This document shows positions 2,618 to 38,641 of a DNA stretch of 64,000 nt, one piece after another. The first letter of the stretch is position 1; every line of letters begins with the position of its first letter. The DNA is from Bolinopsis microptera (Eukaryota > Ctenophora > Tentaculata > Lobata > Bolinopsidae): NCBI RefSeq assembly GCF_026151205.1, contig NC_087077.1, forward strand, positions 9,105,983 through 9,169,982, given 5' to 3'. The position numbers were made by a program, and so were the translations under genes. Below the pieces are notes generated by a model. The model ran no database searches, had not been told where the DNA came from, and worked only from the letters and a program-made list of their open reading frames with translations.

Positions 2618-3405
2618 ACATGATCTCTTGCCCACGAGGTGATTACAAAATAATCGACCACACTGCTTCCATTATATTTGTGACAGGTCATTTTTCCAGT
2701 GGTGTCCCCGAGGGTACGCCCATTAAGAATTTTCAGTTGGTTATTAATAACCATGTCAAGAAAATGTTGGCAGTGGGGTTCAGATATAGTCAGGTCAGAG
2801 TTGTTTCTGGGTTCTTCAATGTCATGTTCAAGTCCAATATCATTATAGATGTCATGCATGGCAGGTGCATTACAAGAGAGGATATAGTCTGGGAGTTTTC
2901 CAGTTCTTGCATTTGCATCGCCACACATGATAACTTCTCCTTTTTGACGTAGTCTAATACAGAGGGTGTCAAGAGCAGAGAAGGTCTTAGCAGTATAGTC
3001 TGGATATTTCTTGACATAGGACGAATATGCAGGGCTAATATAATAACATACTAAAAATAGATCAAAATCAAGCTTAAAAAAGTTTTTGTCAAGTTTAACA
3101 ACAATAATATCGTCAGATTCACTACAAGGAACACAGGAAACACCTTTTCTTAAATCATTTTCAGCAAGAATGCAGACCCCTCCTGAGCGAGAATTTTTGC
3201 GGTTGCTATTAAAGGAAAGATATCCTTCGATTTTAACCTGCTTCTTAGTTTCTTGGAGACATAGAATGTTTGCTTGTTTGAGGATTGTCAGAAATTCGTT
3301 ATTTTCAAATTTGTTAGATCCGTCTCCTGTACTGTCCTGAATGTTCCAGGACATTACAGCGACTTGATCTCGTGAGGAGTGTAGATTGTCAGGTATTTCA
3401 TTCAT
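2599..3405 (-). CDS. LINE apurinic-type endonuclease domain, frameshifted at its end
   Basis: A 268-residue frame matching the exonuclease-endonuclease-phosphatase fold used by LINEs to nick target DNA. Near the N-terminus it reads MSWNIQ, then ILCLQETK (the conserved Glu of the metal site), later MCGDANAR (the GDxN motif), and near the end SSVVDYFV (the D-Y/F motif). The frame closes at a TAA at 2599-2601, but the sequence continues as a good RT protein in another frame from about 2617. The stop therefore comes from a one-base indel and is not a natural C-terminus. Confidence 0.8.
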   Translation of the reverse strand: MNEIPDNLHSSRDQVAVMSWNIQDSTGDGSNKFENNEFLTILKQANILCLQETKKQVKIEGYLSFNSNRKNSRSGGVCILAENDLRKGVSCVPCSESDDIIVVKLDKNFFKLDFDLFLVCYYISPAYSSYVKKYPDYTAKTFSALDTLCIRLRQKGEVIMCGDANARTGKLPDYILSCNAPAMHDIYNDIGLEHDIEEPRNNSDLTISEPHCQHFLDMVINNQLKILNGRTLGDTTGKMTCHKYNGSSVVDYFVITSWARDHVNSRLF

Positions 3406-4330: not shown

Positions 4331-5090
4331 GCCTACGAAAATTTAAGGTTACAAATATCAAAGTCTTTATTTGTCCAGTCATACACGGCATGACAATGCT
4401 GGTTGGAAAGTAGTGAAGATTTCAGTTTGGATTTCAGGCAAGAAATACTAACAGAACAATCAAAGATTTTAAGGTTAGGGGTTATTATATTCCATATTTT
4501 CGTTGACCTCGTGTTATGGTTGTCTGGGGGATCCGGTTTATTGATAATAAGCATTGGTTTCCTGGAAGAATGAGAATACTCTTCGTACATAGACATAGGA
4601 GTAGAAAACTTCATGATCTTGAATAATTCTATGTAGCTATGGTAAGTATAAAGATTTTGTACAGTGAGTATCTCGCTGTTTTTAAACAGAGGTTTAGTGT
4701 GCTCCTTTTTATAAAATTTACTATCAAGTTTCTGGTCAGTAAATGGTCTGGTTTGAACACACGTTTTGAATTTATCCAGGTAGGCTGCTCTATCACCAAA
4801 CAGGACCCTCAGACAGTACTTCTGTGCAGTGAATATTGAGCTTATACGATTTTTAGCTGCCCCACCCCATGCTGATATGCAGTACGACAGATGGGATTCA
4901 AAAAGAGTGTAGTATAACTGTCTGTGGAGAAATTCTGGGAGGGAGCAGCGTAGACGACACAGAGTTGAGGTGGCATGGTTAAGCTTTCGTTTTAGGGCTA
5001 TTATATGTTCTTCCCATGTTAGATTTTCGTCAATGACGACTCCTAAAAATCTAGCTGACGTTACTCTTTTGATGGGGTATTATAATCTTT
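4330..5090 (-). mobile_element. 5'-truncated CR1-like LINE (RT C-terminal part)
   Basis: A minus-strand frame stays open from about 5090 to a stop at 4333. It reads FLGVVIDENLTWEEHI, then ESHLSYCISAWGG, EHTKPLF, and STKIWNIITPNLK. These blocks match, in order, the end of the intact LINE ORF2 at 31.8-32.5 kb (FLGVIIDEQLCWEPHL, SHLSYCISCWGG, EHTKPLF, STKIWNDLIP). It is the same clade but clearly a different family. Truncation at about 5090 is the usual product of incomplete target-primed reverse transcription. Confidence 0.8.
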
Positions 5091-5927
5091 TGTGTGCCAA
5101 GTTCGTTTATAAAATCTTATCATATAATAAAATTGATCCAATAATCTTAGATGAACGGTATATATATCATAGCTCATCGTTATTAAAATCCGAATGGATG
5201 AATTAATCAAATAATGTTCCCTTTCAACACAACTAAACAACAAACAAATGCTTGCTCACCAGTGGTGACGCAATCGTAGGGGCATGCAGCTATTTCAGAT
5301 AACTCTCACCCCGACGACAGCGTCGAAAAATAATCAAATTATGCATTTGCGCCATACTGGACACATTTTATATTTAATATTCTACAGTTTGTAGAAATTA
5401 GTGTTATCTACTGCAGCAAGCATTAACTGGCGAGCAAGCATCGTCCCACTCGGCCGGGACGAAAATACCGAGTCCAATCACAGAAAGTTAACCATAAACT
5501 AATGATAAATATAATAATATGAAAAGGAAAATTGATAGGTGTGCTACGACAGGATTCCTAAACTTGACACCAAGATTTTTTAATCCTTTTTCTTCCTAAT
5601 TACTGGACGAACCTATCCAAAGATGCAAAACGTCATGTCATATCTTAATTTTCGAATCATGCTGGTATATTTAAAATGCATACAGAAGAGTCAATGGGAT
5701 CCAATTGTGATGTTATTCTAGAACCTACACCCCCTTTGTGAACAAACCATTATACTTGTGGTTAACTGACTGTCCAAGCCTATTTCTGATTTTCTCTTTA
5801 CGAAATGGTTTTAGATGGAGTAAGTTGACAACAAAAATCCTCATCTACACTCTTGACTTGATTAAGTGTTCAAGTTTTCAATGTTTTTATTATCAATTTA
5901 TGTTTTTTAAAGCCTTATATTCTCAGG
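5091..5927. other. Upstream region of the BTB-RRM cluster
   Basis: AT-rich DNA with no convincing ORF. The last 40 bases before 5928 are pyrimidine-rich and end in TATTCTCAG immediately before G-ATG, which looks like a 3' splice site. The 5' UTR of the first BTB-RRM gene may therefore begin further upstream, or be supplied by trans-splicing. Confidence 0.4.
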
Positions 5928-7643
5928 ATGGCGAAATTAACATTACTGAGAGACTTCACCAGATTTCTAGACGAGGATGAGTTTCCTCATCGAGTAGAGG
6001 TTTACCTCGGGGACAAGAAGCTTGTCTGTTCTGGTATGATTATTGCTCAACAAAGTTCTGTTTTAGAACAAAAGATAAGGGACGAGCATGGTATTCTGAT
6101 GCTTGATGAGATGGTAGAAATTGGTTCAGATGGCCATAAATATGAATGCATGAGGCTCTTGTATGGTGCAGCCATTGAATTTAACTTGGACAACATTGAG
6201 ACTGTTCTTAAATTTTCAAGCATCTATATGGTGGAGGATATGTTTGTCAAAGCCATAAAATGGATCAAGCAGACTATGACCTGTCGTAATTTTCAGCTTT
6301 ATTATATGTTGCATAAACAAATGTGTTCTCCCTTTTTCGAAAGGTTTCAAAAGATCATAACAGAGTTTATAGGGAACAATGCTAACCAATGTGGTAATGA
6401 GATGAGTGAACTTCTCGACTCTAACCAAGACATTGACCAAGACTGTTTTATTGAAGTTTTGAAAAACCAACCAATGAATGGTGGTGTGTTACTTACCAGA
6501 TGGGTACGCAAGACAGAGAATATTCCAATCTTACTGAAGACAGCTGATGATCTAGATTTCTTTAAACTCTTTCCTGACCAGTCTGGATTCACTGTCTTCT
6601 TGAATATTCTGACTCAACAAAATGAATCCATGGAAACGATGAAAGCAGCACTCACCTTGCAACAAAATTACTTCACCAACTATACTAAACATAAGCATGA
6701 GTCTCCAGAAAAGGCTTCCAACTCAAAAGATGTGCCTGACGACAAAAGTGATACTAAGTCTACAGCTAGCAAAGCAAAATCCAAGGGTAAGAAGCAAAGT
6801 TCAAAAGAGACTGGAAATCAAAACTCCAAGCAGCAAAACACAAACAGTTCAAAAAATGAGCCTGATAATAGAAGTGAAAAGTCTTCCTCAAGCAAAGCTA
6901 AACCAGGTGCTAAGAAAACAAGTCCAAAGGAGTCTGCTGATAAAAATTCCAAGCAGCAAAACACAAAAAGTTCTAAAAATGAGCCTGATAATAGAGGTGA
7001 AAAGTCTTCCTCAAGCAAAGCTAAACCAGGTGCTAAGAAAGCAAGTCCAAAGGAGTCTGCTGATAAAAATCCCAAGCAACAAAATAAGAATGAAAAGAAA
7101 GATACCAAACCTACAACTGAAGGCACTACTGATGAAAAAGTTCTAACGGAAAGAAAGATCTTTGTAGGAAACATACCTGACAATGTAACAAATGAGGAAA
7201 TGGAGAAAGTATTCTCTGATTATGGTTTTGTTGTTGGAATAGATCTAGTACCTCTCAGAAAATGTGCATTTGTAGAATTCAGAAGTGTCAAAGCTTCAAG
7301 AAAAATTCTTAATCTTGTGAACGTTGATAAAGATGCCATAAAAATTATGGATACTACTGTGTACATAAAGCCTTTTAACCCCGACATAAATGCCAATCCT
7401 GAGAAAAAGGTATTTGTAGGAAATTTACCTGAAAATGCTGCAGTCAAAGACTTAAAATTGGCGTTCGCAACCTACGGACCTCTAAAAACAGTAACATTAG
7501 TCAGTCAAAGGAAGTGTGCTTTTTTAGAATTTGAAGATGTTAAAACTGTAAGGAAAATTCTGAATATGTTTGCTAATGGCCAAACATTTTCTGTGTTGGA
7601 TACAAAAGTGTATGTGAAACCTTTTGAAGTTCAGCAGGATTGA
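5928..7643 (+). CDS. BTB/BACK-like + two RRM protein, paralogue A
   Basis: Single open coding exon, 571 residues, starting at MAKLTLLRDF. Residues about 18-115 look like a divergent BTB/POZ fold: VEVYLGDKKLVCSGMIIAQQ corresponds to the BTB strand-helix start, and CMRLLYGAAIEF with VLKFSSIYMVEDMF to its C-terminal helices. Residues about 115-250 are helical and BACK-like. Residues 255-405 are a Lys/Ser/Asn-rich linker holding two copies of a 41-residue repeat. RRM1 has RNP2 KIFVGNIP at 410-417 and RNP1 KCAFVEF near 445. RRM2 has KVFVGNLP at 494 and KCAFLEF near 530. Known RRMs bind single-stranded RNA and BTB domains dimerise or recruit cullin-3, so an RNA-binding adaptor is inferred. I do not recognise the full architecture. 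The two paralogues follow in the same orientation. Confidence 0.85.
   Translation: MAKLTLLRDFTRFLDEDEFPHRVEVYLGDKKLVCSGMIIAQQSSVLEQKIRDEHGILMLDEMVEIGSDGHKYECMRLLYGAAIEFNLDNIETVLKFSSIYMVEDMFVKAIKWIKQTMTCRNFQLYYMLHKQMCSPFFERFQKIITEFIGNNANQCGNEMSELLDSNQDIDQDCFIEVLKNQPMNGGVLLTRWVRKTENIPILLKTADDLDFFKLFPDQSGFTVFLNILTQQNESMETMKAALTLQQNYFTNYTKHKHESPEKASNSKDVPDDKSDTKSTASKAKSKGKKQSSKETGNQNSKQQNTNSSKNEPDNRSEKSSSSKAKPGAKKTSPKESADKNSKQQNTKSSKNEPDNRGEKSSSSKAKPGAKKASPKESADKNPKQQNKNEKKDTKPTTEGTTDEKVLTERKIFVGNIPDNVTNEEMEKVFSDYGFVVGIDLVPLRKCAFVEFRSVKASRKILNLVNVDKDAIKIMDTTVYIKPFNPDINANPEKKVFVGNLPENAAVKDLKLAFATYGPLKTVTLVSQRKCAFLEFEDVKTVRKILNMFANGQTFSVLDTKVYVKPFEVQQD
6828..7073 (+). repeat. Two in-frame 123-bp repeats in the linker of paralogue A
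   Basis: Copies start at 6828 and 6951, and a partial third (KQQN) starts at 7074. Each encodes 41 residues beginning KQQNT and ending in ESADKN plus S or P. The repeats differ at only a few bases, so the duplication is recent. The length keeps the reading frame. Paralogue B lacks this linker and C has an unrelated acidic/Asn-Gln-rich one. Confidence 0.9.
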
Positions 7644-8086: not shown

Positions 8087-8320
8087 GTGTTATGTATCCT
8101 ACATACATAACAAATTGGTCTTCCAAGTGCTTTTTTAAGGACCAGTCAGATTGGAAATTACATCTTGTTCGGAAGTTTGTTATTAGATAATCGGCTTACT
8201 GTGATAATCATTAACACGGTTTCATTAAACCTCCCTAATCTTGTAAATTGTATTAGTTCAGGTAGCAAGTATAAGCTGATATGCTGAGAGGTGGTATATT
8301 TGGCTCTGTCATTCTTAAAG

Positions 8321-9706
8321 ATGGAGAAACTGGATCTTGAAAGAGACTTCTCAAGATTTTTCGACAAGGAAGATTTTCCTCACACAGTTTCTGTATGTTT
8401 GGGTGGACAACAATTTGCTACCTGTTCTGGTATGATTTTGGCTCAGCAAAGTGTTATCATCGAGGATATAATATGTTCTAATGAAGGAGTTCTAACTTTG
8501 AATAATCTGGAAAACTACACTATTCCTGAAATTCTAGAATGCTTCCGGTATTTGTATGGAGCAGACATTACACTGTCCTTGGAAAATATTGGGACCATTC
8601 TGACCTTTTCCAGTCTCTATGAAATTAGAGATTTGTTTTCTTTAGCTTTTGATTGGATACTGAAAAACATAACTGTGAAATATCTAATCACCCTATTTGA
8701 AATTTCTTCTAATTTGTCCTGCAAACATAAACCTCTGCTTCTTCGTGTCTTGGATAACTTTCTCGCAGACAACATATCTGATGTTATGATGGAAGTGAGA
8801 AACCGTCTCAAAGATGGTAAAAGACTTGGTTCTGAGATCCTTTCTACAATACTGCAACAATCGTTTTCTAGCTGTGGTGATATTGTACTTGCTTGGATGG
8901 CTCAAGACCCATCTAATGTCTCATTTGTTTTGAATAATATGGATTCAATAGACATGTTTAAAAACTTCCCTCAGGCTGATGAATTTTCTAAACTCATCTC
9001 GTGTCTTTCTGCAAATGCAGACTCGTTGCAAACGATGGAGAAGCTCATTGAGTTGCAACAGCATTACTTTACAAAAGTATCTAAGACTCTTCAAAATGAA
9101 CCACCTGTCGCTGCTGTGGATGGTATCAATTATTGTGAATCAATATGTAATGCTTCTCATTTTTATAATCTCGATGAAGGACTCTTACATATTTTACAAT
9201 GTCGTTCTGATTATTCTTCCACTGTCTCTGTTTCGAATGTACCTGTATATGCTTCCAATGATGATGTTGTACTGGCCCTGTCAAAAGTTGGACCTGTCAA
9301 AAGTGTTATTCTGATTAACATCGATTGCTTCAACCAATTTGGTTTTGTCTCTTTTGAAGACAAATTTTCTGCCAAGGAATCTTTATCTTGTGATATCTTT
9401 ATTCATAGAAACAAACTAGCTGTTAAATCCTTTATCAAGCCTTCTAGTTCAAAATGTTCTGATAGAAAGTTATTCATTAAGAAAGTCCCCGTTCGTGCTT
9501 CCAAGAGGGACATAGAAAGATGCTTTTCTCCTTACGGACCAATAAAAGATATTGAAATTATCAGGCATAAAAAGTGTGCTTTTATAGAGCTTTTTGATGT
9601 CAAGATTGTTGCCATGTTGATTCATCTTTCAATGAATGGTGTCACATTGAGGATTTTAGGAAAAATTGTCTCAATCGAAAATTTTAAATTTAAGGTTGAG
9701 AAATGA
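8321..9706 (+). CDS. BTB/BACK-like + two RRM protein, paralogue B
   Basis: Coding exon of 461 residues. I chose the ATG at 8321 (MEKLDLERDFSRFF), which aligns with the start of paralogue A; the frame is open a little further up but only through a GTG. The N-terminal region again reads like BTB (VSVCLGGQQFATCSGMILAQQ, FRYLYGADITLSLENIGTIL, FSSLYEIRDLF), followed by a BACK-like helical part. The linker is short, with no low-complexity repeat. RRM1 is degenerate (TVSVSNVPVYAS, FGFVSFED). RRM2 is better (KLFIKKVPVRAS, KCAFIEL). The ATG is directly preceded by a polypyrimidine stretch and AAAG, a possible splice acceptor. Same role as paralogue A is inferred. Confidence 0.83.
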   Translation: MEKLDLERDFSRFFDKEDFPHTVSVCLGGQQFATCSGMILAQQSVIIEDIICSNEGVLTLNNLENYTIPEILECFRYLYGADITLSLENIGTILTFSSLYEIRDLFSLAFDWILKNITVKYLITLFEISSNLSCKHKPLLLRVLDNFLADNISDVMMEVRNRLKDGKRLGSEILSTILQQSFSSCGDIVLAWMAQDPSNVSFVLNNMDSIDMFKNFPQADEFSKLISCLSANADSLQTMEKLIELQQHYFTKVSKTLQNEPPVAAVDGINYCESICNASHFYNLDEGLLHILQCRSDYSSTVSVSNVPVYASNDDVVLALSKVGPVKSVILINIDCFNQFGFVSFEDKFSAKESLSCDIFIHRNKLAVKSFIKPSSSKCSDRKLFIKKVPVRASKRDIERCFSPYGPIKDIEIIRHKKCAFIELFDVKIVAMLIHLSMNGVTLRILGKIVSIENFKFKVEK

Positions 9707-10174: not shown

Positions 10175-10227
10175 CTGGATTATAATCTGATAAAATGCAG
10201 AGCACAGTTGTCAGGTGGTTTAAAGTG

Positions 10228-11661
10228 ATGGCACGGCTGAATCTTAATCGTGACTTCTCTAGATTTCTTGAAGATGAGACATTCCCCCATCGAGCTGAGG
10301 TTCATTTTGGTGATAAAGCATTGATATGTTCAGGAATGGTCCTTGCTCAGCAAAGTTCTATCATTGAGGGACTTATTCGTGAAGATTGTGGAGTTTTAAT
10401 GTTTGAGAAGATTGAAAATATTGGAGATATTGACCAGAAACTTGAGTGTATCAAATTTATGTATGGAGCTCCCTTGGCATTAACCCTCCAGAACATTGAT
10501 ACCGTCATTAAATTTGCCAGCTTGTATGAAGTTATGGATTTATTTCATAAATCAGTGCAATGGATAGAGAAGACAATATCTGCAAGAAGTTTGTTTGCAA
10601 TTAATGACATATCCAAATCATTCGAAAACGAAGATCACCAAACCAAGCTCAACAAAGTCATAAGTACATTTATCTCCAAGAACATAAACAAAGTTGGAGT
10701 AGAATTAGCTGAGAGAATTGCTCATGGTGATGAAGTTGAAATTGAGTTGTTTGTCTCTATTGTTAAACAAAACCCTTTCAATGGAGCAAACTTACTAGTA
10801 GAATGGACCAATAAATGCAACGAAAACAAACTTAGTATTCTGGAGAAAGTGGAGGAGTTTGACTTTGTTACTCTGTTTCCCGCCCAGGGAGATTTTACTG
10901 GTTTCGTTGCTCTGCTCTCGGAGGGATCAAGTTCGGTTGATGTTATGAAACAGGTTCTTGCTCTTCAACAAGACTACTTCGTAAAGAGTGCAGCCAAAGT
11001 GTTACAGCCCCCACAAGTAGCAGAAGAAAGTGCTGAAGAGGAGGTGGAAGAAGTGGAGGAAGAAGAAAACGAAGATGAAGATGAAGATGATAGTGAGGAA
11101 GAAAATGATGATGTTGCATCTATTGCATCGAGTGCTCGTACAGCCAACTCTACTGGCAAGCCTAAATCAAATCGGAGTGGAAGAAACAGACCAAAAAAAC
11201 AAAACCGTGAAGAAGGTTGGAAGTCAGTTAAAAATCCTGTGGAGAGTAGGCAGCAAAAACAGAAACACCATAATGTAAAGGATATGCAACCAAACAACAG
11301 AAATAAACCTGCGACAAACCAGCCGCAGTCAAAGGGTGCTAGCCAATTTAGGAGTTTCAATCAACAAACAAATGCAAATCCTAAGTCTGGCCTGGTGGGA
11401 AAGTGCAAAATATTTGTTGCAAATGTACCATCAAACGCTAAAGCTGTTGACATCAAGCCACCGTTCAAGTTTTGTGGTGCCATAGTGAACATAGATGTCC
11501 ATATGAACAAAAACATTGCATTTATCGAGTTTAGTAACGAAAAGGGTGCAACCACTGCACTGAGCGCTGCTAAGCGTGGGGTGAAGTTTACAGTGTTGGG
11601 TCAAACTGTAGTAGTCCGTGAGTACACTCCCGGAAAAGGAAGTAAATCATCTGTTGTTTGA
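10228..11661 (+). CDS. BTB/BACK-like + single RRM protein, paralogue C
   Basis: Coding exon of 477 residues from the ATG at 10228 (MARLNLNRDFSRFLED), which aligns with MAKL of paralogue A. An in-frame ATG at 10195 would add 11 residues. The BTB-like region reads AEVHFGDKALICSGMVLAQQ, then FMYGAPLALTLQNIDTVI and FASLYEVMDLF; a BACK-like helical part follows to about residue 255. Next comes a run of Glu/Asp (about 270-292), then a basic Asn/Gln/Lys-rich stretch. One RRM sits at the C-terminus (RNP2 KIFVANVP at 394-401, RNP1 NIAFIEF). The second RRM found in A and B is absent. The acidic and Asn/Gln-rich linker suggests a condensate-forming or G3BP-like behaviour, but that is only inference. Confidence 0.83.
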   Translation: MARLNLNRDFSRFLEDETFPHRAEVHFGDKALICSGMVLAQQSSIIEGLIREDCGVLMFEKIENIGDIDQKLECIKFMYGAPLALTLQNIDTVIKFASLYEVMDLFHKSVQWIEKTISARSLFAINDISKSFENEDHQTKLNKVISTFISKNINKVGVELAERIAHGDEVEIELFVSIVKQNPFNGANLLVEWTNKCNENKLSILEKVEEFDFVTLFPAQGDFTGFVALLSEGSSSVDVMKQVLALQQDYFVKSAAKVLQPPQVAEESAEEEVEEVEEEENEDEDEDDSEEENDDVASIASSARTANSTGKPKSNRSGRNRPKKQNREEGWKSVKNPVESRQQKQKHHNVKDMQPNNRNKPATNQPQSKGASQFRSFNQQTNANPKSGLVGKCKIFVANVPSNAKAVDIKPPFKFCGAIVNIDVHMNKNIAFIEFSNEKGATTALSAAKRGVKFTVLGQTVVVREYTPGKGSKSSVV

Positions 11662-26895: not shown

Positions 26896-26961
26896 ATGTT
26901 AGCAATACTGTGGCACCAGATCTTAATATTAATCGCATGCTGTTTGTATTCAATTATCATC

Positions 26962-29130
26962 ATGAAAAAGACCGACAAGAAACTCGACAGGAGATCGGAC
27001 CTCTTTAATTCCACGTATCGAGGGTGCAAGTCAGCTGGATCCACCCCTATTTCAAGCCCTGTTTTAAGCCGAAAAGTCACTAGCAGAATACATAATAGGA
27101 ACACAGAGCCAGATGCAGATCTAACATCTGATGGAGACTTTGTAGATGTAGAGAGCAACGAACCAGCATCGATCCCAGGAACGCTACTCTCTAAGTGTCC
27201 CTGCTTTGTAGAGTCAAAGAACCCTGCAATCTTATGTGTTACTTGTAAGCAGACCTTCCATTCTAACTGTGTTAACCTTGCTGGCCTCACAGCAACTTCT
27301 CTAAAGAAGCTCAGCACTTCCTGGAAGTGCCCGGACTGCTTTATCTTTCCTTACACAAGAAGATTGAAGGAGGAGGAAAAATCCAAAGCGTTAACAGAAT
27401 TCTTTAGCAATATTTCTAAGATATCAAAGTGTAATGAGGAACTCAAAGAAAGTACAACAACCATAGAGTTCTTCAACGAGCATATCAAACACCTCATACT
27501 CAAGGAGGACAGTTGTTTCAAAGAACACTCCAAAAGAACAGAACGATTAGTGACTGGAATTGAAGATATCACTGAAGACATAGCTTCTATCAAGGGTGTA
27601 CTTACGAAAGTAAAGGAGAGTGGCTCAGCTCTTGAGACAACCAGCAACTCTCTCAAACAGGAGATTGATGGCCTGAAGGACTCTCTCAAAAATATACCTA
27701 TGACAGAGCAACCTCCGACTAACAGCAGTACTTTCGATCATGTTGACAACCTGATGACCCAGATCAAAGTGCAATTGGAAAAGATCAATGATCATGTATG
27801 TCCCTCAACGTCCACACAGAACTTTGATGAAGGTGAACTACGTTACAATGAATCTATCCTTATGACCCCTAACACTACTTCTCCTCACTTTGCTGCATCT
27901 CAAATTCCTGAAGGCCCTGCATGTGACCCTTATCTAACTTATCAGGAAGATATAGTGCCTGTTGAGCTTCACAGCAAACTTATAAAGCTGCTGGAGGACA
28001 ATAGTGCGGATTTTTCTTCGGTTGGTGGCAGCAGGGATGTTGTCTACTTTGGTGAACATGGATACTGGTACACAGGAGCCTATCATCAGGCAAAGGAAAC
28101 TCCACCGGAGATACAAGATCTTTTGGACTGTGTGCGTCCCTCTCTCCCCAATAGGAAGAGCTGGCTGAACTCTTGCCTTGTTACAAGATATACAGGCAAT
28201 AGTAGCCATATCCCCCAACACTGCGACAATGAGGTTCTTATTGACCCAGAATCGATAATAGTCACTGTGTCCCTTGGTGAAGAACGCACAATAAAGTTCA
28301 CACATAAGTCGACTGAAAAGTCCTTAAAGCTCAAAGATGGAAGTGTATACGTGATGTCCAGAATGTCCCAAGAAATCTGGAATCATGGTATTGAACCCCT
28401 CGCTAATGAAGAAGATGGCGAGGAATCTGAAGAGAAAACTTCTGTGAGGTACAGCTTTACCTTTAGGCATATTGCGCCTTTCTACAAAAATAGCACAGTG
28501 TTAATTGGAGACTCAAACACTAAGTACATTAAATTTGGTAAAGATGTTGGAACTCTAGGAAAATGGGTTCCCGGTAAGCGAATGTGGGCTGCTAAAATCG
28601 ACGATATTCCTGCTCCCAAAGACATAGGCCCCTTTCGGAACATTGTTATACATACGGGAATCAATGATATTCGAGATGATTCCAACAGACCATCCACTAG
28701 AACACTTATTGCTAAGCTTAAGAAGAAATGTTGTGAAATTCAGCAATTTTATCCTAATAGTAAAGTTCATATTAGTTTACTCTTGCCCACCAAATCACAG
28801 TTTGTTAACTCACGTATAGGGGAGTTAAACAGTTTAATTGTCGACATGGTTTATAATAGGAAAAACATGTTTATTATAGATAACTCTGTACTAGGTTCTG
28901 TTAACGGATGTATGCCCTCTAAGTATGGTAGATTCTCACGTGATGGCACACCATTGGTCAATGATGTTGTTCATCTCGGGAGAGAAGGCCTGAAAATATT
29001 TTGTATGAACATAAAACGGTGTATTGTACAACGTGGTGGAAGTCAGTCCACGGAAAGATTTAAAGGTGGAAATGGTGACTATAGGAGTGCCCTAAGTAGG
29101 GGTAGTACGGGTGATATCTTACCGATATGA
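26962..29130 (+). CDS. LINE ORF1: PHD finger + AlkB-like dioxygenase + SGNH hydrolase
   Basis: 722 residues from the ATG at 26962; an in-frame ATG at 26896 would add 22 hydrophobic residues. Residues 79-126 form a PHD-like Cys4-His-Cys3 finger. Residues about 135-270 are a coiled coil. Residues about 350-505 read as an AlkB-type 2OG-Fe(II) dioxygenase: VVYFGEHGYWYTG at the substrate lid, the HxD iron ligands H420 and D422 (in PQHCDNE), H475 (in WNHGIEP), and R496/R502 in RYSFTFR, matching the AlkB R-x5-R signature. Spacing H-to-H is 55 and H-to-R 21, near the E. coli values (56 and 17). Residues about 513-680 are an SGNH hydrolase/esterase with S518 in GDSN, HTGIND, and D668/H671 in DVVHLG. 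The esterase is known in CR1 ORF1; the AlkB part is unexpected. All catalytic positions are present. Confidence 0.88.
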   Translation: MKKTDKKLDRRSDLFNSTYRGCKSAGSTPISSPVLSRKVTSRIHNRNTEPDADLTSDGDFVDVESNEPASIPGTLLSKCPCFVESKNPAILCVTCKQTFHSNCVNLAGLTATSLKKLSTSWKCPDCFIFPYTRRLKEEEKSKALTEFFSNISKISKCNEELKESTTTIEFFNEHIKHLILKEDSCFKEHSKRTERLVTGIEDITEDIASIKGVLTKVKESGSALETTSNSLKQEIDGLKDSLKNIPMTEQPPTNSSTFDHVDNLMTQIKVQLEKINDHVCPSTSTQNFDEGELRYNESILMTPNTTSPHFAASQIPEGPACDPYLTYQEDIVPVELHSKLIKLLEDNSADFSSVGGSRDVVYFGEHGYWYTGAYHQAKETPPEIQDLLDCVRPSLPNRKSWLNSCLVTRYTGNSSHIPQHCDNEVLIDPESIIVTVSLGEERTIKFTHKSTEKSLKLKDGSVYVMSRMSQEIWNHGIEPLANEEDGEESEEKTSVRYSFTFRHIAPFYKNSTVLIGDSNTKYIKFGKDVGTLGKWVPGKRMWAAKIDDIPAPKDIGPFRNIVIHTGINDIRDDSNRPSTRTLIAKLKKKCCEIQQFYPNSKVHISLLLPTKSQFVNSRIGELNSLIVDMVYNRKNMFIIDNSVLGSVNGCMPSKYGRFSRDGTPLVNDVVHLGREGLKIFCMNIKRCIVQRGGSQSTERFKGGNGDYRSALSRGSTGDILPI

Positions 29131-32100
29131 CCTCAATAAACTTCAATATTACAAGAGAGAGATGTCCAGGTTGTGATAGCAATGTACTAAGCCATCATAA
29201 AATCATAATATGTGAGAGTTGCGATACATTATATCATGCCAAATGTTCTGAACAGAGTTTTAAATTTGATCATGTTAAACAAATGTGGCACTGCAGTCAG
29301 TGTTACGCCTTCAAATCCCAAAGGTACAATCCTTTTAACTCAATTATTTATGACAAATATGATCCCAACACTGTAGAAAGAGACGAGGATATGGAGACTA
29401 TTTCAAACATTCTAAAAGACTGTAGGTATTATAACATGACAAATTTCAACCGGCTGTCAAAAAACATACTTAACCATAACAAGCCGTTTATATCTATTGT
29501 GTTTAACAACATTGATGGGAACGCATCTAACTTTGACAGCTTTATTACTGATATGAGTCAATATGATGAGAAATTTGCAGTTATTGCGCTAGCTGAAACA
29601 AACATTAATGAGGAAAATAAAGATCTATACAAAATTGATGGTTACAGCAGTGAGTACAACTCTAAAACTGATGGGAAAAAGAAAGGTAGTGGCCTTGGTA
29701 TATATATTGACAATCAGTACCAATACAGCCGAATCGAAAAGTTATGTAAATGCTCTGACAATCTTGAAACACTTTTCGTTGAGATCACTAACACAGAGGT
29801 TCCACAGATTGCTGGTGTTGTTTACAGGCCCCCTAGTGGTGATATTCAAGATGCACTTGCTGAGCTTGATGTGTTGATGAAATTTCTACCGTCTAATAAT
29901 GTAGCCTTGACAGGTGACTTCAATGTTGATCTTTTGGCCCAGGGACGAAACATAGCTGAATTTGAACAAACTATCTACAGTAACAATTTAATCCCTTTGA
30001 TATCGATTGCCACCCATGCCAAGCCGGGTTGCAATGAAAGCTTAATTGATAATATTTTAGTGAACTCTACTGAGCGTGTGTTAGGATCTGGAATTCTTGA
30101 ATCCAAGATTTCCCATCATAACCCCATCTTCTGTTTCATATCGTGTAATATTAAAGAGAGTTCAAATACTGCCAAACTTAAACCTAAGTATGATTACTGT
30201 GAGTCTAATATAGAAAGTTTCCTTAATGATATTGGAAAGGATATCTACCAATCGAACTTTTCGTATGATGAGGAAGGTTTTGAAAAATTTGTCGAAACTG
30301 TCCACGAAAAAATCGAACTGAATTTCAAAGTGGACTGTACTGCTGGTTTTCAATCAAAACGCAATAGATTGATGAATCCATGGATCACTTCTGCGTTAAT
30401 TAAATCTGTGTTTACTAAAGGCTTTCACTACAAGCGATGGAAGGCTTCGTGTACCAAAATCAACCCATTAGGTGAGGAAACTTTATATCTTAAGTATAAG
30501 GAGTATCGTTCTATCTTAAACAAAGCTATAAAATCTGCGAAAAAAGCCCACTATGGGAAAAAATTTGAACTTGCTAAAGGAAATATTAAAAAAACCTGGG
30601 AATTGATCAACGAACTCAGGGGTAAATCTAAAAAAGATATAAAAGCATCATTCTTAATTGATGGTAGAATTGTAACTGAACGCCGTGAGATTGCCAACGG
30701 ATTTAACATCTACTTCTCGTCTATTGCTCGTAATCTTAATTCAAAAGTTCAATCTTCTGTACCATCTCGTACGGTAACTGATGGCAATTTCAATAAAACG
30801 AAGTTTAAACAATACCTCAAGGGCAGAGAAAGAATAGTGAACTCTTTTTTTCTCAGCCCCTGTGACGAGGAAGAGATAAGTAAAATTATTGGTAGCCTTG
30901 AAAATGGGAAGGCAAGTGATATCTCTGTTAAAGTCTTGAAAAAGAGTGTAAATTATCTGTCTGGTCATATCTCTAGATTCTTTAATTGGTTCTTGGACAA
31001 TGGGGTCTTTCCAAACAAGCTTAAAACGGGCTCTATTACACCAATTTATAAAAAAGGAGACTCACGATGCCTTGATAACTATCGACCTGTTTCTACATTA
31101 CCGATATTTGGCAAAATACTTGAAAAAATAATTTATAATAGGTTATATAATTACCTCAGTGCTATGAACGTGATTTATGATCGACAATTTGGTTTTAGAA
31201 AACAACACTCAACATCTCATGCCGTAAACTATTCTGTCAATAAAATACTTAATGAGATTGAACAGAAAAATCATGTAATTGGAATATTTATTGATCTAAG
31301 TAAAGCATTTGACACAATTGAGCACGATAAACTCCTGCATAAACTTGAACACTATGGAGTAAGAGGTATTGCACTAAAAACTCTTGCTAGCTATCTAACA
31401 AACCGTAGCCAAGTAACTTCTTTTCAAACTGAAAAATCGGACAAGTGTTCAGTTGAGTATGGTGTACCCCAGGGGTCAGTGTTAGGACCTCTACTATTTC
31501 TGATTTATATAAATGATATTGTGAGCTCCTCAAGTTTGGCTGAATTCGTCCTGTTTGCTGATGATACAAATATTTTTGTGATAGGTCGTTCAGCACAGGA
31601 AGCTTTTGAAAAAGCTAATCATGTAATGAAACAGGTCAGTAACTATATGGAGTCTAACAAGTTACATATAAATGCAGGGAAAAGTTGTTTTATGCATTTT
31701 CAGCCAGGTTTGTCAAGAGCAACACAGACCTGTGCTAGAACACGGCCCTTTAACAGGAATCTAACGATTTCAATAGATGGCAAAAAGCTAGAAAAAGTTC
31801 AATGTACAAAATTTCTTGGGGTGATAATAGACGAACAGCTATGTTGGGAACCACATCTTAATCATTTATCTTTAAAGCTGAACTCCAGTATTGTATCGAT
31901 TAAGAGAATTTGCAAATTCATTCCCAAATCTGAATATTTGAAACTATACAATGCTCTTTTTATGTCACATCTTAGCTATTGTATAAGTTGCTGGGGTGGG
32001 ATCCCTAAACATAAGCTGAATAAAATCTTTGCTATTCAAAAACGATGTATACGACTGCTATTTGGTAACATTCCCAATTTTGATCATAAAGAATACTACT

Positions 32101-32558
32101 TAACCTGTGCACGTTCAAGAACTTATAACGAACATATGGCTAAAAAGAACTACTGTCTTGAACACACTAAACCGCTATTCACTGAGCAGAAAATTATGAA
32201 CCTGGAGAATCTGCACATGTACCATACATTTATGGAGCTATTCAAAATTCTTAAATTTGATGTCCCCCAGTCGATTAAAGATCTTTTCAAGTTCTGTCCT
32301 AGAAATGAAAAACTTCGTCTGATTGTCCCATTACTGAGGTTAGATATCTCCCAACAGAACTTTTTGTACACCTCTACGAAAATATGGAATGATCTCATCC
32401 CCTATGTATTCGAAATATGTGATGCTAATGTAGATGGGATAATAATCCCGGGGTCTTCCAAAAATTCAGACTTATCAGCCTCGTCAGGTATTATTAAATC
32501 TAACCTTAAAAAGCACTTGCTATCCCTCCAAAATCGAGGTGACCCTAATATATGGTAA
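29127..32558 (+). CDS. LINE ORF2: PHD finger + endonuclease + reverse transcriptase
   Basis: 1143 residues, no interruption. Residues 13-59 form a second PHD-like finger (C13, C16, C29, C32, H37, C40, C56, C59). The endonuclease spans about 128-335: LAETN, [23 protein letters not shown]. Its last motif reads SHHNP where SDHxP is usual, so the Asp beside the catalytic His is replaced. The RT spans about 570-850: [16 protein letters not shown] (motif A), [20 protein letters not shown] (B), FADD at 810-813 (C). The C-terminal part has [12 protein letters not shown] and [11 protein letters not shown], shared with the truncated copy at 4.3-5.1 kb. It performs target-primed reverse transcription in the nucleus. 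Confidence 0.93.
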   Translation: [1143 protein letters not shown]

Positions 32559-32960
32559 CTAATCTATATTATATCTCAAATTCTACATCTGGTACGGCTC
32601 TGCACACATGATATCTCTCTCTGCCATGAAACATGGCTAACCTTTCAAACTATGATTTAAAACATAAACCTAAACTAAAACTCAACTGGGCTCTCCTATG
32701 TCACCAAACTAGACCAATAAGCAATTTTAGCTTAGATAATTATATTTTTCTATATTTGTATAATAAGTTTTATATTGACGTAGTGGATGGTTGAGGGGGT
32801 TTCAAGCACAGGTCACTCTCAAATCCTAAAGATAAGCAGTGGCCTTCGGCACTTGAAACCTCTTCAAACCTCCCCTGATTTATTTATTATTGATATTGTT
32901 TGATTGTGCCGTAAAAATAAATATTTGTTTTATTAAATAAATATTTGTTTTATTAAATAA

Positions 32961-34640
32961 TATTCAAATAAAACATGTTAACTGATTTTAACTAAGTTGA
33001 TAGTTCTGGAGTGTGTTTTACCAAAGAGTTAAAGATCTATCAACTAAAAGAGTTAAAGGTAATCTTTAAGTTTAACTCTTAATCATAGTTTTATTTAAAT
33101 TTCTAGTATTACACTCAACATCCATCATCAGAGTATTTAGTAGCACAGCACTCAATAATTTGTGGAATTAAATCGATGAACCCATATAAAACTAATTAAA
33201 TGATGTATATGAATAATTCGTCACATATAGTTCAAGGGTTTATCTCAAAATAAAAATTTCGAGTCATTGACATTTTGATAGTTTTTTGGGTTCCAATATG
33301 GTCGATCATGAAAATACTACTAGCAGATTTTCTGAAAAAGGAAAGTGAGATCTACCAAATACTTTTGACCTCATCAAAAATGATTGATTCTGGCCATAGT
33401 TATGGGTCCTTGAAGGTCAGCATTATATGTATAATTTTATTGAAAGCAGGCATAAACTAGAATGTGTTTAGAAACATGAAGCTGTTTAGAAATAGGAGTT
33501 AGGCCTTTAAAAATAAAATGCTGGAAGTTGTGTACTTCAACACATAAAAACATATAATTTGCTAGTTAAAAAGGACTTATTTGAAGTTAAGCCATTTCCA
33601 CAGATTTTCTGAATTGTATTATCTGTATGAAAATATTCCATTAAATCCTGGATTAAACACAAATGACCTCTTACTTACTCTCAACCAACTATTAGGTCAC
33701 CTCTGAGCAAACCTAAAATATTACTAGTCCAGAAAAATAATGAAGTCTTAACTTGTGAGTTGTGGGAGATTTCAGAAACGTATTAACAATTTGTTATGGG
33801 CTCTACTACAAAGGAAACAAAAAAACAAAGAAATGAATCCACACTCCATTTTCTGAAAGATGTCACAAATACTTAAACTTGTCAATTTTATTATTTAGAT
33901 TTAAGGTACAAAAATTAAAGATAGGTTTCAATTATCAAATCGAAAAGCTTAACCAAAAAACTTAGAATGAAACTGATTATGTACTTATAATGTAAATCAC
34001 TACAGGACTAGCTGTTAGAAGCCTCGACAAACGTGACCCTCAGACTGACTGCTTTGTACTTTAACTTGAAAAGGTCTGTTACTAGTCGATGGAATGGTCA
34101 AATTACAAGGAGTTGTTCAGGCATTAACAACAATTCTCAGCTCATTAGATTTAGTTCAAGAAAGGCTGGTCAGCAGGTTGTTATAATTATTGGTTTATAG
34201 GAAATACTAAGCGATATTTTAGTTTACCCAAGCTTTCTAAAACTGCCATTACTTAATTTCTGAGGATCAATTTCTGATGTATTTCAAATCATTCATAAGA
34301 AGACTGTATCAAGAAACACAAACATTGTTCAACATTTAAGGGTGGTAAAAATTATCTCTCGAATAGAGGTAATCTTTTATAATTCAGTTCAGTCTAAAAA
34401 CGAAGTTTGAAAGAAGGTTAGTTTTTTAAATAATCAGGACAAAAGAGGAAAATTTAGATTATTCAACTTGAAACCTACAGCTGCAGAAGGGGGTAAGACA
34501 GCTTAAGAAAGCTAAAGGTTGCTTAGTACAGTTGCAAAGGTTTATGAGCGACATTTTGATCGGTTTTGTGGTAATTACGTTAGGTTCAGTGCGAGATAGT
34601 TTATGATAAAGCTAGATAAAATAAAGATCAAGCGGGTAGA
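32961..34640. other. AT-rich gene-free region
   Basis: No supported gene, RNA or repeat. Short ORFs here show no recognisable domain and look random. Confidence 0.5.
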
Positions 34641-35499: not shown

Positions 35500-38400
35500 G
35501 GGGATGGTTGTTCGCTTGAGTACTATGATGCGGTTATACAAGTCTGGCAAAACAATTTGTGACCTGCCTATTGGCCGGGCGCCGCCGTAGACTCAACACA
35601 TGGTGTGTGGGGTATTTACCTCGGGCACACACCTTAATCTCTCGACCGGCGGGTCACACCCAAATCTCCTGCTCCAACTCTTTCAAAGGCTGGTACCCTA
35701 CTACTATGTGGCCAGAAGGAAATTCTTGTAGGAACTCTTAATGTACGAACAATAAGAGAACAATACAAGAGGGATGAGCTGGGTGTATGCATGAGGGATA
35801 GTGGCGTACATATTTTGGGCATTCAGGAGCATCGGGTAGTACATAGCACTGAAATCGAGTATCAAGATCTTGGAAGCTCTCACCTCATAACAACTTTGGC
35901 ATGGAGAACCAGCAATGGGGCGGCTGCTGGTGGGGTTGGTATTGTCTTGGACAAAAAGACAGTATTCAACACATTGATTAGTGTATACTCACATGACAGG
36001 AGGACGATGGTAGCCAACTTTGCAGGGAACCCGGTCACAACTGTTATTGTGACTTATAGCCCGACAGAGGGGGCGACTGTCGACGAAGCAGAAAACTACT
36101 ACGACAGCCTTGGTAGTTGGTGGTGCCATTGACCAGATACCAGCCCACAACTTACTATTCGTTGTAGGAGACCTCAATGCGCATGTCTCATCATCAGGAA
36201 ACTGGACATCCTTCCACAAGGGTCCAGCAAACCGAAATGGTAGACTGCTAGAGGATATGCTGTTGGAGCGACAGCTAGAAATCACAAACACCAGATTTCA
36301 GAAGCGAAGAGGTAAACTCTGGACATATCTCTCAAATATGAGTCAAAGTAAATCTCAAATCGACTTCATCATTTGCCGGAAGAAATGGCGGAACTCCGTC
36401 AAGAACTCCGAAGCATATGGTAGTTTCCACAGTATTGGCTCGGATCACAGAGTAGTCGTAGCAAGGGTAAAGCTTAGTCTACGGATAAGCAAGACGGAGA
36501 AGAGGGCTCCGGTTCTGGACTGGTCTTAACTTAAAACTGATATCGCTCTACAAGAGAGGTACACAGTGGAAGTTAAAAACCGCTTTTCCATACTTGAAAA
36601 GGATGATCAGACGGCAACAGAAAGGTACCAATGCTTTATTGATGCGAATAGGACAACTTCTCGACTTTTACTACCTGAAAAGGAGAAAAAGAAAAGATGT
36701 AAAATCTCAGCGACTCCAAGTGTTGAGATTGCCAGGCTGAAGCTGAGGGAATGTAGCATAAAATACCACTCAGATGCTACAGAAGACAACCGAATAGCTG
36801 TTCAAGAGGGCAAACAGAAGCTAGGCGATGCTTATCAAGCAGCCAAAGAGCACCTGCTGGAGGGGCAGGTCCGGGAACTGGAGGAAGCAAGTTGGCAGGG
36901 CAGACATGCTAAAAGCTGGACCATGATCAACAAGATCACAGGTAAAGCTCCATCATATACTGGCAAAATCAAGGGAAACTCACCAACGGAAAGGGTTCAG
37001 AAATGGAAGGACTATTTTGCTACTCTTCTCGGCTCACCACCGACGGTAGAGAACGCGGAAGAGGATATTGATCCAGTCCACCCACCTCTGAATATCGGAA
37101 CAGAACCGTTTACGTTGGATGAGTACAGGAAAGCAAAGTCCAGCATAAAGGAAGGGAAAGCATGGGGTGACGACAACATAGCCCCAGAAGTCTTAAAACG
37201 ATGCGACCTTGATCAAATTGTCTTAGACTTCTGTAACAATGCTCTATTGAAAGGTGAGAAACCAGACCAATGGTCAACTGCCAACATCATACCAATTCCA
37301 AAGAAGGGCGACCTTAGCGAACCAATGAACTATCGGGGAATAAGCTTGTCATCCCTAGTTGCCAAGTCTCTAAACAAAATGGTTCTAAACCGGTTGAAGC
37401 CAGAAATCGAGACAATTCTGCGTAGAAACCAGAATGGATTCAGACCAGGAAGGTCAACAACTCAACAGATATTGGTACTGAGACGTCTTATAGAGGGTGT
37501 CAAGAGTCAGAAACTGCCAGCTGTTCTGACATTTATAGACTTTAAGAAGGCTTTCGACAGTGTACATTGTGGGAAAATGCTAAAGATTCTAGAAGCTTAC
37601 GGCATTCCAGTCAAAATCGTGAAGCTTAGACGGCTCATGTACGAGAAGACAATGGCCAAAGTCCTAACTCCAGACGGAGAAACTGAATTGTTCGAGATAC
37701 TTGCAGGTGTGTTACAGGGTGATACCTTAGCACCTTACCTCTTTGCAATAGTCATCGACTACTGTATGAGGCAAGCCATAGGCGATGATGCGGAGCGACT
37801 TGGACTCACCCTCGAACGTAGAAAAAGCAGAAGAGTGGGGCCCAAGATCATCACCGATGTGGACTTTGCAGATGATTTAGCACTTATATCTGAGGACATG
37901 GACAAGGCTAACGAGTTCCTGCTCAGAGTAGAATCGGCGGCAGCAAGCGTGGGACTACACATAAACGAAGGCAAGACCAAGGTCATGACACTGAATATGG
38001 AGGATCGATCTAGCGACCTACAAAGTCGATCCGGGGAAGCCATAGAAAATGTAGATGATTTCATCTACTTAGGCTCCTGGATTGAGAGCACAGATAGGGA
38101 GATAAGGGTAAGAAAGGGAAAAGCGTGGGGTGCCCTACATAGACTGAAGGATATCTGGAAATCCAAACTCTCAAAGAGCCTAAAGATTAGATTGTTCATA
38201 GCGGCTTGTGAATCAGTACTGCTCTACGGATCAGAAACCTGGACACTGACAAAGGCTCAAGAGAAAAGTTTGGACGGGACATACACAAAGATGTTGCGTA
38301 TGGTGCTGGGTATCTCATGGAAGGACAAGGTCAGCAATATAACTTTGTATGGTAGCCTCCCAAGGCTGTCAAACAAGTTACGAAGCGGGAGATTAAAAAT

Positions 38401-38641
38401 GGCGGGACACTGCATCCGACATCCTGAGCTACTTGCCAGTGATTTAGTCTTATGGGAACCTACGCACGGTAGAGCACAGCAAGGCCGACCAAGACAAAGC
38501 TACTTGTCTATGTTACTGAAGGAAGTTGGGACAAACTCTAAAGAGGAACTGCGAACCCTGATGCGGGACAGGGATATATGGAGGGGGTTTTCTGGCGTAG
38601 ATCGGACTTAGCTCCGACATAGTAGTAGTAGTAGTAGTAGT
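35500..38641 (+). mobile_element. RTE-like LINE with two lesions and a TAG-repeat tail
   Basis: The endonuclease becomes readable at about 35713 (EILVGTLNVRTIREQYKRDE) and is frameshifted near 36105. It continues in the frame of 36110-36529 (FVVGDLNAHVSSSGNW, SQIDFIICRK, GSDHRVV) to an in-frame TAA at 36527. The RT then follows in that same frame. The 3' end is the simple repeat TAGTAGTAG (38616-38641). RTE elements end in short tandem repeats rather than poly(A). The 5' boundary is uncertain. Confidence 0.88.
36566..38611 (+). CDS. RTE-like LINE reverse transcriptase
   Basis: 681 residues open to the stop at 38609-38611. Motifs: NGFRPGRSTTQQI, FIDFKKAFDSVHCGKM (A), AGVLQGDTLAPYLFAIVIDY (B), DVDFADDLALIS (C), then YLGSWIEST, LLYGSETWTLTKAQE, and a C-terminal block AGHCIRHPELLASDLVLWEP typical of RTE-related proteins. 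The ATG at 36566 is not a natural start; it follows the premature stop at 36527 in the same frame, and the original protein fused this to the endonuclease. Without those two lesions it would be a full ORF. Confidence 0.88.
   Translation: MEVKNRFSILEKDDQTATERYQCFIDANRTTSRLLLPEKEKKKRCKISATPSVEIARLKLRECSIKYHSDATEDNRIAVQEGKQKLGDAYQAAKEHLLEGQVRELEEASWQGRHAKSWTMINKITGKAPSYTGKIKGNSPTERVQKWKDYFATLLGSPPTVENAEEDIDPVHPPLNIGTEPFTLDEYRKAKSSIKEGKAWGDDNIAPEVLKRCDLDQIVLDFCNNALLKGEKPDQWSTANIIPIPKKGDLSEPMNYRGISLSSLVAKSLNKMVLNRLKPEIETILRRNQNGFRPGRSTTQQILVLRRLIEGVKSQKLPAVLTFIDFKKAFDSVHCGKMLKILEAYGIPVKIVKLRRLMYEKTMAKVLTPDGETELFEILAGVLQGDTLAPYLFAIVIDYCMRQAIGDDAERLGLTLERRKSRRVGPKIITDVDFADDLALISEDMDKANEFLLRVESAAASVGLHINEGKTKVMTLNMEDRSSDLQSRSGEAIENVDDFIYLGSWIESTDREIRVRKGKAWGALHRLKDIWKSKLSKSLKIRLFIAACESVLLYGSETWTLTKAQEKSLDGTYTKMLRMVLGISWKDKVSNITLYGSLPRLSNKLRSGRLKMAGHCIRHPELLASDLVLWEPTHGRAQQGRPRQSYLSMLLKEVGTNSKEELRTLMRDRDIWRGFSGVDRT

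Follow-up and report, generated by a model that had tools for sequence, protein, structure and literature searches.

What is a domain of the AlkB family, the 2-oxoglutarate (2OG)- and Fe(II)-dependent dioxygenases, doing within the first open reading frame (ORF1) of a retrotransposon? The question is raised by a long interspersed nuclear element (LINE) copy in a 64,000-nucleotide stretch of the genome of the ctenophore Bolinopsis microptera (contig NC_087077.1, positions 9,105,983 to 9,169,982; hereafter the window), for which an original prediction, made from the sequence alone, had proposed such a domain between a PHD finger and coiled coil on one side and an SGNH hydrolase on the other. Of all parts of a LINE, ORF1 is the one least understood. 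We find in this one an AlkB fold with conserved Fe and 2OG residues, which is under purifying selection, recurs across diverged LINE families and has been co-inherited with the adjacent esterase.

The AlkB domain of ORF1 and its active site

ORF1 scores 68.8 bits against the PF13532 (2OG-FeII_Oxy_2) model (curated cut-off 31.2, E=9.4e-19), far beyond chance, and the PDB fold lists obtained with the AlphaFold model of the region are headed by ALKBH2, ALKBH3 and AlkB structures, a match to the double-stranded beta-helix, the lack of which had been named as one refuting result. The confidence of this model (predicted local distance difference test, averaged per ten-residue block) is 86-96 over residues 321-480 and falls to 50 and 79 within 481-500, where a low-confidence loop occupies residues 484-492. 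The AlkB identity first read from the letters is thereby borne out; the modelled boundaries (Table 1) lie within a few bases of the 27930-28475 originally given, the named residues H420, D422, H475, R496 and R502 are in place, and the 722-residue frame is uninterrupted. The top PDB matches by sequence and by structure are ALKBH2 and ALKBH3, with profile scores of 77.9 and 72.8 bits against 23.4 for ALKBH5 and equal structure Z scores for the first two. From these scores, the domain is nearer ALKBH2/3 than the other AlkB homologues with solved structures. At 23.5 bits it does not reach the cut-off of the bacterial AlkB equivalog model TIGR00568 (231.05), and predicted structures of viral proteins match the model as well. 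It thus shares with ALKBH2 and ALKBH3 the fold, the HxD...H Fe site, the R-x5-R motif and an HxDxE signature, but differs from them in lying inside ORF1, flanked by a coiled coil and an esterase, in the low-confidence loop and, in the window family, in a Thr at the usual position of the 2OG-contacting Asn.

To define the conserved positions we used an alignment of the window ORF1 with 108 proteins of at least 500 residues out of 133 fetched; exclusion of the distant P0133 from per-position counts left 108 rows, of which 106 or 107 span any core position. This alignment showed that: 1) invariance of 99% or more is reached at twenty of the 185 domain positions, which include all five catalytic residues (the three Fe ligands and both arginines); these five are as invariant as the SGNH triad of the neighboring esterase. 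The refuting pattern named at the outset, loss of these residues amid conserved flanks, is thus not what the copies display. 2) The complete H-D-H-R-R set is present in 105 of 109 rows, P0133 counted; the core is absent from the alignment in P0028 and P0035, R496 is replaced by Q in P0065, and P0124 is without R502. 3) Within the HCDNE motif C421 and N423 vary, unlike H420, D422 and E424, and T500 in the RYSFTFR motif is identical in 106 of 106 rows. 4) A stretch at residues 360-372, VVYFGEHGYWYTG, retains G364, Y368, Y370 and G372 in 106/106 rows; it had been described as lid-like, and while its presence and conservation stand, the model places it in a strand region preceding the AlkB core. 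5) Position 408, which we take to be the site of the usual 2OG-contacting Asn of AlkB structures (an Asn and a Tyr preceding the HxD motif), is N in 73, T in 31 and S in 2 of 106 rows, the window having T408; at position 410, 96 rows have Y and 10 have F.

The remainder of ORF1 follows the predicted order of PHD finger, coiled coil, AlkB and SGNH hydrolase. The PHD finger displays a C4HC3 pattern (C79, C81, C92, C95, H100, C103, C123, C126), with C79 and C103 unchanged in all 91 covering rows, and is followed by modelled helices at 137-180, 184-243 and 256-279, of low to moderate confidence. The hydrolase carries conserved GDSN (516-519), GIN (566-568) and DxxH (D668/H671) motifs, with S518 present in 106/106, D668 in 103/104 and H671 in 104/104 rows. 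The Pfam GDSL match of the window copy is weak (E=0.28), and its relative P0105 passes the PF00657 cut-off. An SGNH hydrolase with its catalytic residues following a coiled coil is the arrangement of the esterase-type (type IV) ORF1 of CR1/L2 elements such as ZfL2-1. The window ORF1 departs from it by a leading PHD finger and by the AlkB domain that separates coil and esterase.

Spread, selection and co-inheritance

In the 264,652,675 bases (232 contigs) of the genome, an AlkB query gave at least 150 matches, 150 of 759 candidates having been scored and a few copies contributing two match rows; the count of a second search is likewise a lower bound (144 of 5885 candidates scored). The window copy and 20 further copies, drawn from the highest-ranking AlkB matches and located on several contigs, all retain HCDNE, H475 and RYSFTFR (21/21), with a stop in ORF1 or ORF2 in 4 of the 21. 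Short stretches of seven other families were also inspected, and six gave ORF1 frames with an AlkB domain above the PF13532 cut-off, so that the AlkB domain recurs in ORF1 proteins of diverged LINE families, a search for which the original prediction had suggested. Two of the families, L041 and L042, were picked by their reverse transcriptase and not by AlkB; L042 has the full domain, whereas the open frame of L041 shows no more of it than an RYSITLR-like tail, with the esterase after it, and an AlkB domain there is likely but not shown.

Among the matches listed, all homologues bearing an organism name come from Mnemiopsis leidyi (about 7,990 candidates scored per search). In a tree of the AlkB and esterase domains (midpoint root, support values not inspected) the Mnemiopsis sequences are scattered among the families of the window genome, and this interspersion suggests that the AlkB domain predates the split of these lineages, with horizontal transfer as a possible alternative. 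AlkB and esterase distances are correlated across 98 proteins (r=0.942, with 0 of 999 permutations as high), indicating that the two domains have been co-inherited. A scan of viral contigs with the ORF1 alignment recovered no relative (28 pattern matches, 0 confirmed), and a DNA search of phages gave none. Two Mnemiopsis predicted proteins, P0088 and P0123, are gene models fusing reverse transcriptase and AlkB domains and are probably LINE copies annotated as genes.

The ratio of nonsynonymous to synonymous substitution rates (dN/dS) across copies, proposed earlier as a check, was computed for the window copy against six copies of one subfamily at about 96% DNA identity, which are closely related to one another and hence are not six independent tests. 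The AlkB domain gave 0.116 in four comparisons and 0.143 and 0.139 in the others (Fisher p 2.6e-9 to 2.1e-7), that is, purifying selection; the esterase gave 0.057-0.098, the reverse transcriptase 0.089-0.134 and the coiled coil 0.31-0.53. Some copies look mosaic: L036 matches the window copy at 99.8% identity over its first 550 bases and at 96.4% beyond them, and dS between subfamilies (L021-L040) is about 0.16-0.21 in the AlkB and SGNH parts of ORF1 and about 0.04-0.11 in ORF2 parts. Together these suggest recombination or template switching between subfamilies.

The original prediction had also held that AlkB is no standard LINE feature, and this agrees with our searches of the open-licence PMC literature, which recovered no report of AlkB in a LINE (Repbase and most subscription journals lie outside this scope). 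The ORF1 domain table of PMC4120745 lists PHD, RRM, CCHC, transposase 22, coiled coil, zinc finger/leucine zipper and esterase but no AlkB, and the same study found esterase ORF1s in two vertebrate groups only; PMC3905857 reports esterases from many animal phyla, in CR1, RTEX and Penelope elements. Against the literature searched, the ORF1 described here stands as a variant of known LINE ORF1s that includes a repair-type enzyme domain. The closest parallels are Ty3/Gypsy elements of the orchid Phalaenopsis, retrotransposons with an AlkB-family domain of their own, and the plant RNA viruses of the Alphaflexi-, Betaflexi- and Closteroviridae, likewise selfish RNA-based elements with a fused AlkB domain (PMC9289625). 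The orchid domain is plant ALKBH5-like and described as a recent acquisition, in a separate extra ORF of a long terminal repeat element, whereas that of the window is ALKBH2/3-like, lies inside the ORF1 of a LINE and is common to many diverged families; the viral domains sit in replicase proteins.

A candidate role and its alternatives

These observations lead us to lean, by a small degree, towards a LINE lineage, probably of ctenophores, with a fixed ALKBH2/3-like AlkB domain in ORF1 that acts in the removal of methyl lesions. In what we see as the simplest account, the ORF1 protein would coat the element RNA, multimerising through its coiled coil, and the AlkB domain would read along single-stranded nucleic acid and oxidatively remove Watson-Crick-face methyl lesions (1-methyladenine, m1A, and 3-methylcytosine, m3C) that would otherwise halt reverse transcription or damage the first strand of cDNA. 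By putative binding, the same domain could give an esterase-type ORF1 protein a structured means of holding single-stranded nucleic acid; the SGNH domain, as suggested for that of ZfL2-1, may serve to associate with membranes or lipids. The ALKBH2/3-like affinity is in keeping with the initial suggestion that the element may reverse alkylation or host methylation on RNA or cDNA of its own.

Several observations weigh against a lesion-removing role. In the structure comparison FTO, ALKBH5 and ALKBH6 trail by no more than about 4 Z units, and affinity to ALKBH2/3 leaves the substrate unfixed. The alignment rows are ORF1-similar open frames of at least 500 residues, so decayed copies are under-represented in the conservation counts. 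T408 in place of the 2OG-contacting Asn could mean weaker activity in the window family. Finally, of the six comparisons three recorded changes in the N-terminal/PHD part, with dN/dS of 0.69, 0.24 and 0.50, one recorded none, and in two the copy does not extend over it. Two of the three values show no clear purifying selection, so that the parts of ORF1 appear unequally constrained; with two of six copies not covering the first 135 codons, and the copies mosaic there, the ratio for these codons is unreliable.

Could the domain instead erase host marks, N6-methyladenosine (m6A) in RNA or 6-methyladenine (6mA) in DNA, and thereby release the element transcripts from epitranscriptomic control, an idea put forward for the AlkB of the orchid Gypsy elements? 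We regard this as doubtful. The PHD fingers in both ORFs may suggest chromatin contact, and a transposon-encoded AlkB with in vitro m6A demethylase activity does exist in the orchid (PMC9289625). Against this stands the profile affinity of the LINE domain noted above, much nearer ALKBH2/3 than ALKBH5, which favors m1A/m3C removal over an ALKBH5-type m6A eraser. Further, E424, invariant across the aligned rows, is presumably the substrate-pocket residue that follows HxD in ALKBH2/3 and AlkB and is absent from ALKBH5. As the orchid domain nests among ALKBH5 homologues in PMC9289625, the orchid and LINE domains look like independent captures.

We consider it unlikely, and somewhat more so, that the domain serves to bind nucleic acid and has fallen out of use as an enzyme. 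ORF1 proteins are generally RNA binders and chaperones, and T408 replaces the usual Asn in the window family. Esterase-type ORF1 proteins have coiled coils but, as described in PMC3905857, neither RRM nor any other structural RNA-binding domain, and how they bind RNA is asked there. A dead domain is nevertheless disfavored by the invariance of the three Fe ligands and both arginines, together with the low dN/dS.

Less probable again is that the substrate is DNA, either genomic DNA at the target site or the methylated DNA of the element itself; one instance would be the repair, at integration sites, of 3mC, which DNA methyltransferases produce off target. LINE ORF1 protein is mainly an RNA-particle protein, and nothing observed here puts it at the target site. 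Certain published data do point this way. In a review, ALKB2 is reported to repair 3mC and to co-evolve with DNMT1/3, and the genes of Mnemiopsis to carry CG methylation (PMC9246332); PDB titles record ALKBH2 bound to duplex DNA.

That the window copy alone captured a host ALKBH gene, or is a chimera or an assembly or annotation artefact, has negligible probability: accessory-domain capture by LINEs is on record in the viral helicases of insect LINEs (PMC6338049), but the unbroken frame, the 20 further copies, the six diverged families and the scattered Mnemiopsis sequences refute such an origin for the window genome.

If methyl-lesion removal is indeed the role, this would represent an old LINE lineage whose packaging protein is an oxidative nucleic-acid demethylase, combining template repair with nucleic-acid binding and bringing alkylation repair within the retrotransposition cycle; this wider picture we advance tentatively, at rather less than an even chance. 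A conserved repair-type enzyme in ORF1 would imply that damage to or methylation of template RNA or cDNA limits these elements enough for selection to act. It would also offer a testable answer to the question, raised in PMC3905857, of how esterase-type ORF1 proteins hold RNA. Beside the orchid elements and the plant RNA viruses, it would be an apparently independent capture of AlkB by a retrotransposon, pointing to a convergent pressure on RNA-based parasites.

Layout of the element and its surroundings

The element has the organization of a LINE, with two ORFs, the second encoding an endonuclease (its models scoring below their cut-offs) and a reverse transcriptase, and its domain content suggests a CR1/L2-like affiliation. 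Both ORFs of the window copy are intact. It is truncated 9 bases upstream of the ORF1 start; longer copies elsewhere have a common 5' untranslated region of about 100 bases to about 1.2 kb that is missing here. In BLASTN comparisons with the 20 genomic copies, those reaching the 5' end begin to match at 26950-26953 and most end near 32957, the 3' end being a short AT-rich repeat (AAATAAATATTTGTTTTATT x2). The flanking TATTCA pair is a possible target-site duplication. ORF1 runs from its ATG to a TGA whose bases (29128-29130) overlap the ORF2 ATG (29127-29129) as ATGA, and this overlap suggests that ORF2 may be translated by termination-reinitiation coupling.

Table 1. Positions in the window of the LINE copy, its reading frames and their domains
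Feature	Coordinates	Strand	Evidence
LINE copy	26953..32960	+	BLASTN vs 20 other genomic copies
Possible target-site duplication TATTCA	left 26947..26952, right 32961-32966	+	sequence reading, 6 bases only
ORF1, 722 aa (PHD, coiled coil, AlkB, SGNH esterase)	26962..29130	+	ORF list, Pfam, AlphaFold
PHD-type zinc finger, ORF1 residues 79-126	27196..27339	+	PF00628 E=1.2e-4, 22.5 bits, just under cut-off 24
Coiled coil, ORF1 residues 137-279	27370..27798	+	AlphaFold model
AlkB-type 2OG-Fe(II) dioxygenase domain, ORF1 residues 322-506	27925..28479	+	PF13532, AlphaFold, PDB fold match
HCDNE, residues 420-424 (Fe ligands H420, D422; invariant E424)	28219..28233	+	106/106 rows each
Third Fe ligand H475 (in NHG)	28384..28386	+	106/106 rows
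RYSFTFR, residues 496-502 (R496, R502 of R-x5-R)	28447..28467	+	R496 105/106, R502 106/106 rows
SGNH/GDSL-type esterase, residues ~512-690	28495..29031	+	S518, G566/N568, D668/H671; Pfam GDSL weak
ORF2, 1143 aa	29127..32558	+	sequence, ORF list
Second PHD-type finger, ORF2 N-terminus	29163..29303	+	PF00628 E=0.0011, below cut-off
Endonuclease domain (Exo_endo_phos type)	29541..30101	+	PF03372 E=2.3e-4, PF14529 E=1.6e-3, both below cut-off
Reverse transcriptase domain	31050..31829	+	PF00078 E=3.7e-39, far above cut-off

The window also contains other LINE pieces, namely an endonuclease at 2599-3402 and ORF2-like stretches at 1032-1988 and 4477-5073, all on the minus strand, and another LINE reverse transcriptase at 36530-38608 on the plus strand. 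Three adjacent ORFs (5862-7640, 8288-9703 and 10186-11658) encode proteins with an RRM near the C-terminus, two of them with BTB matches below the cut-off, and resemble a duplicated host gene cluster.
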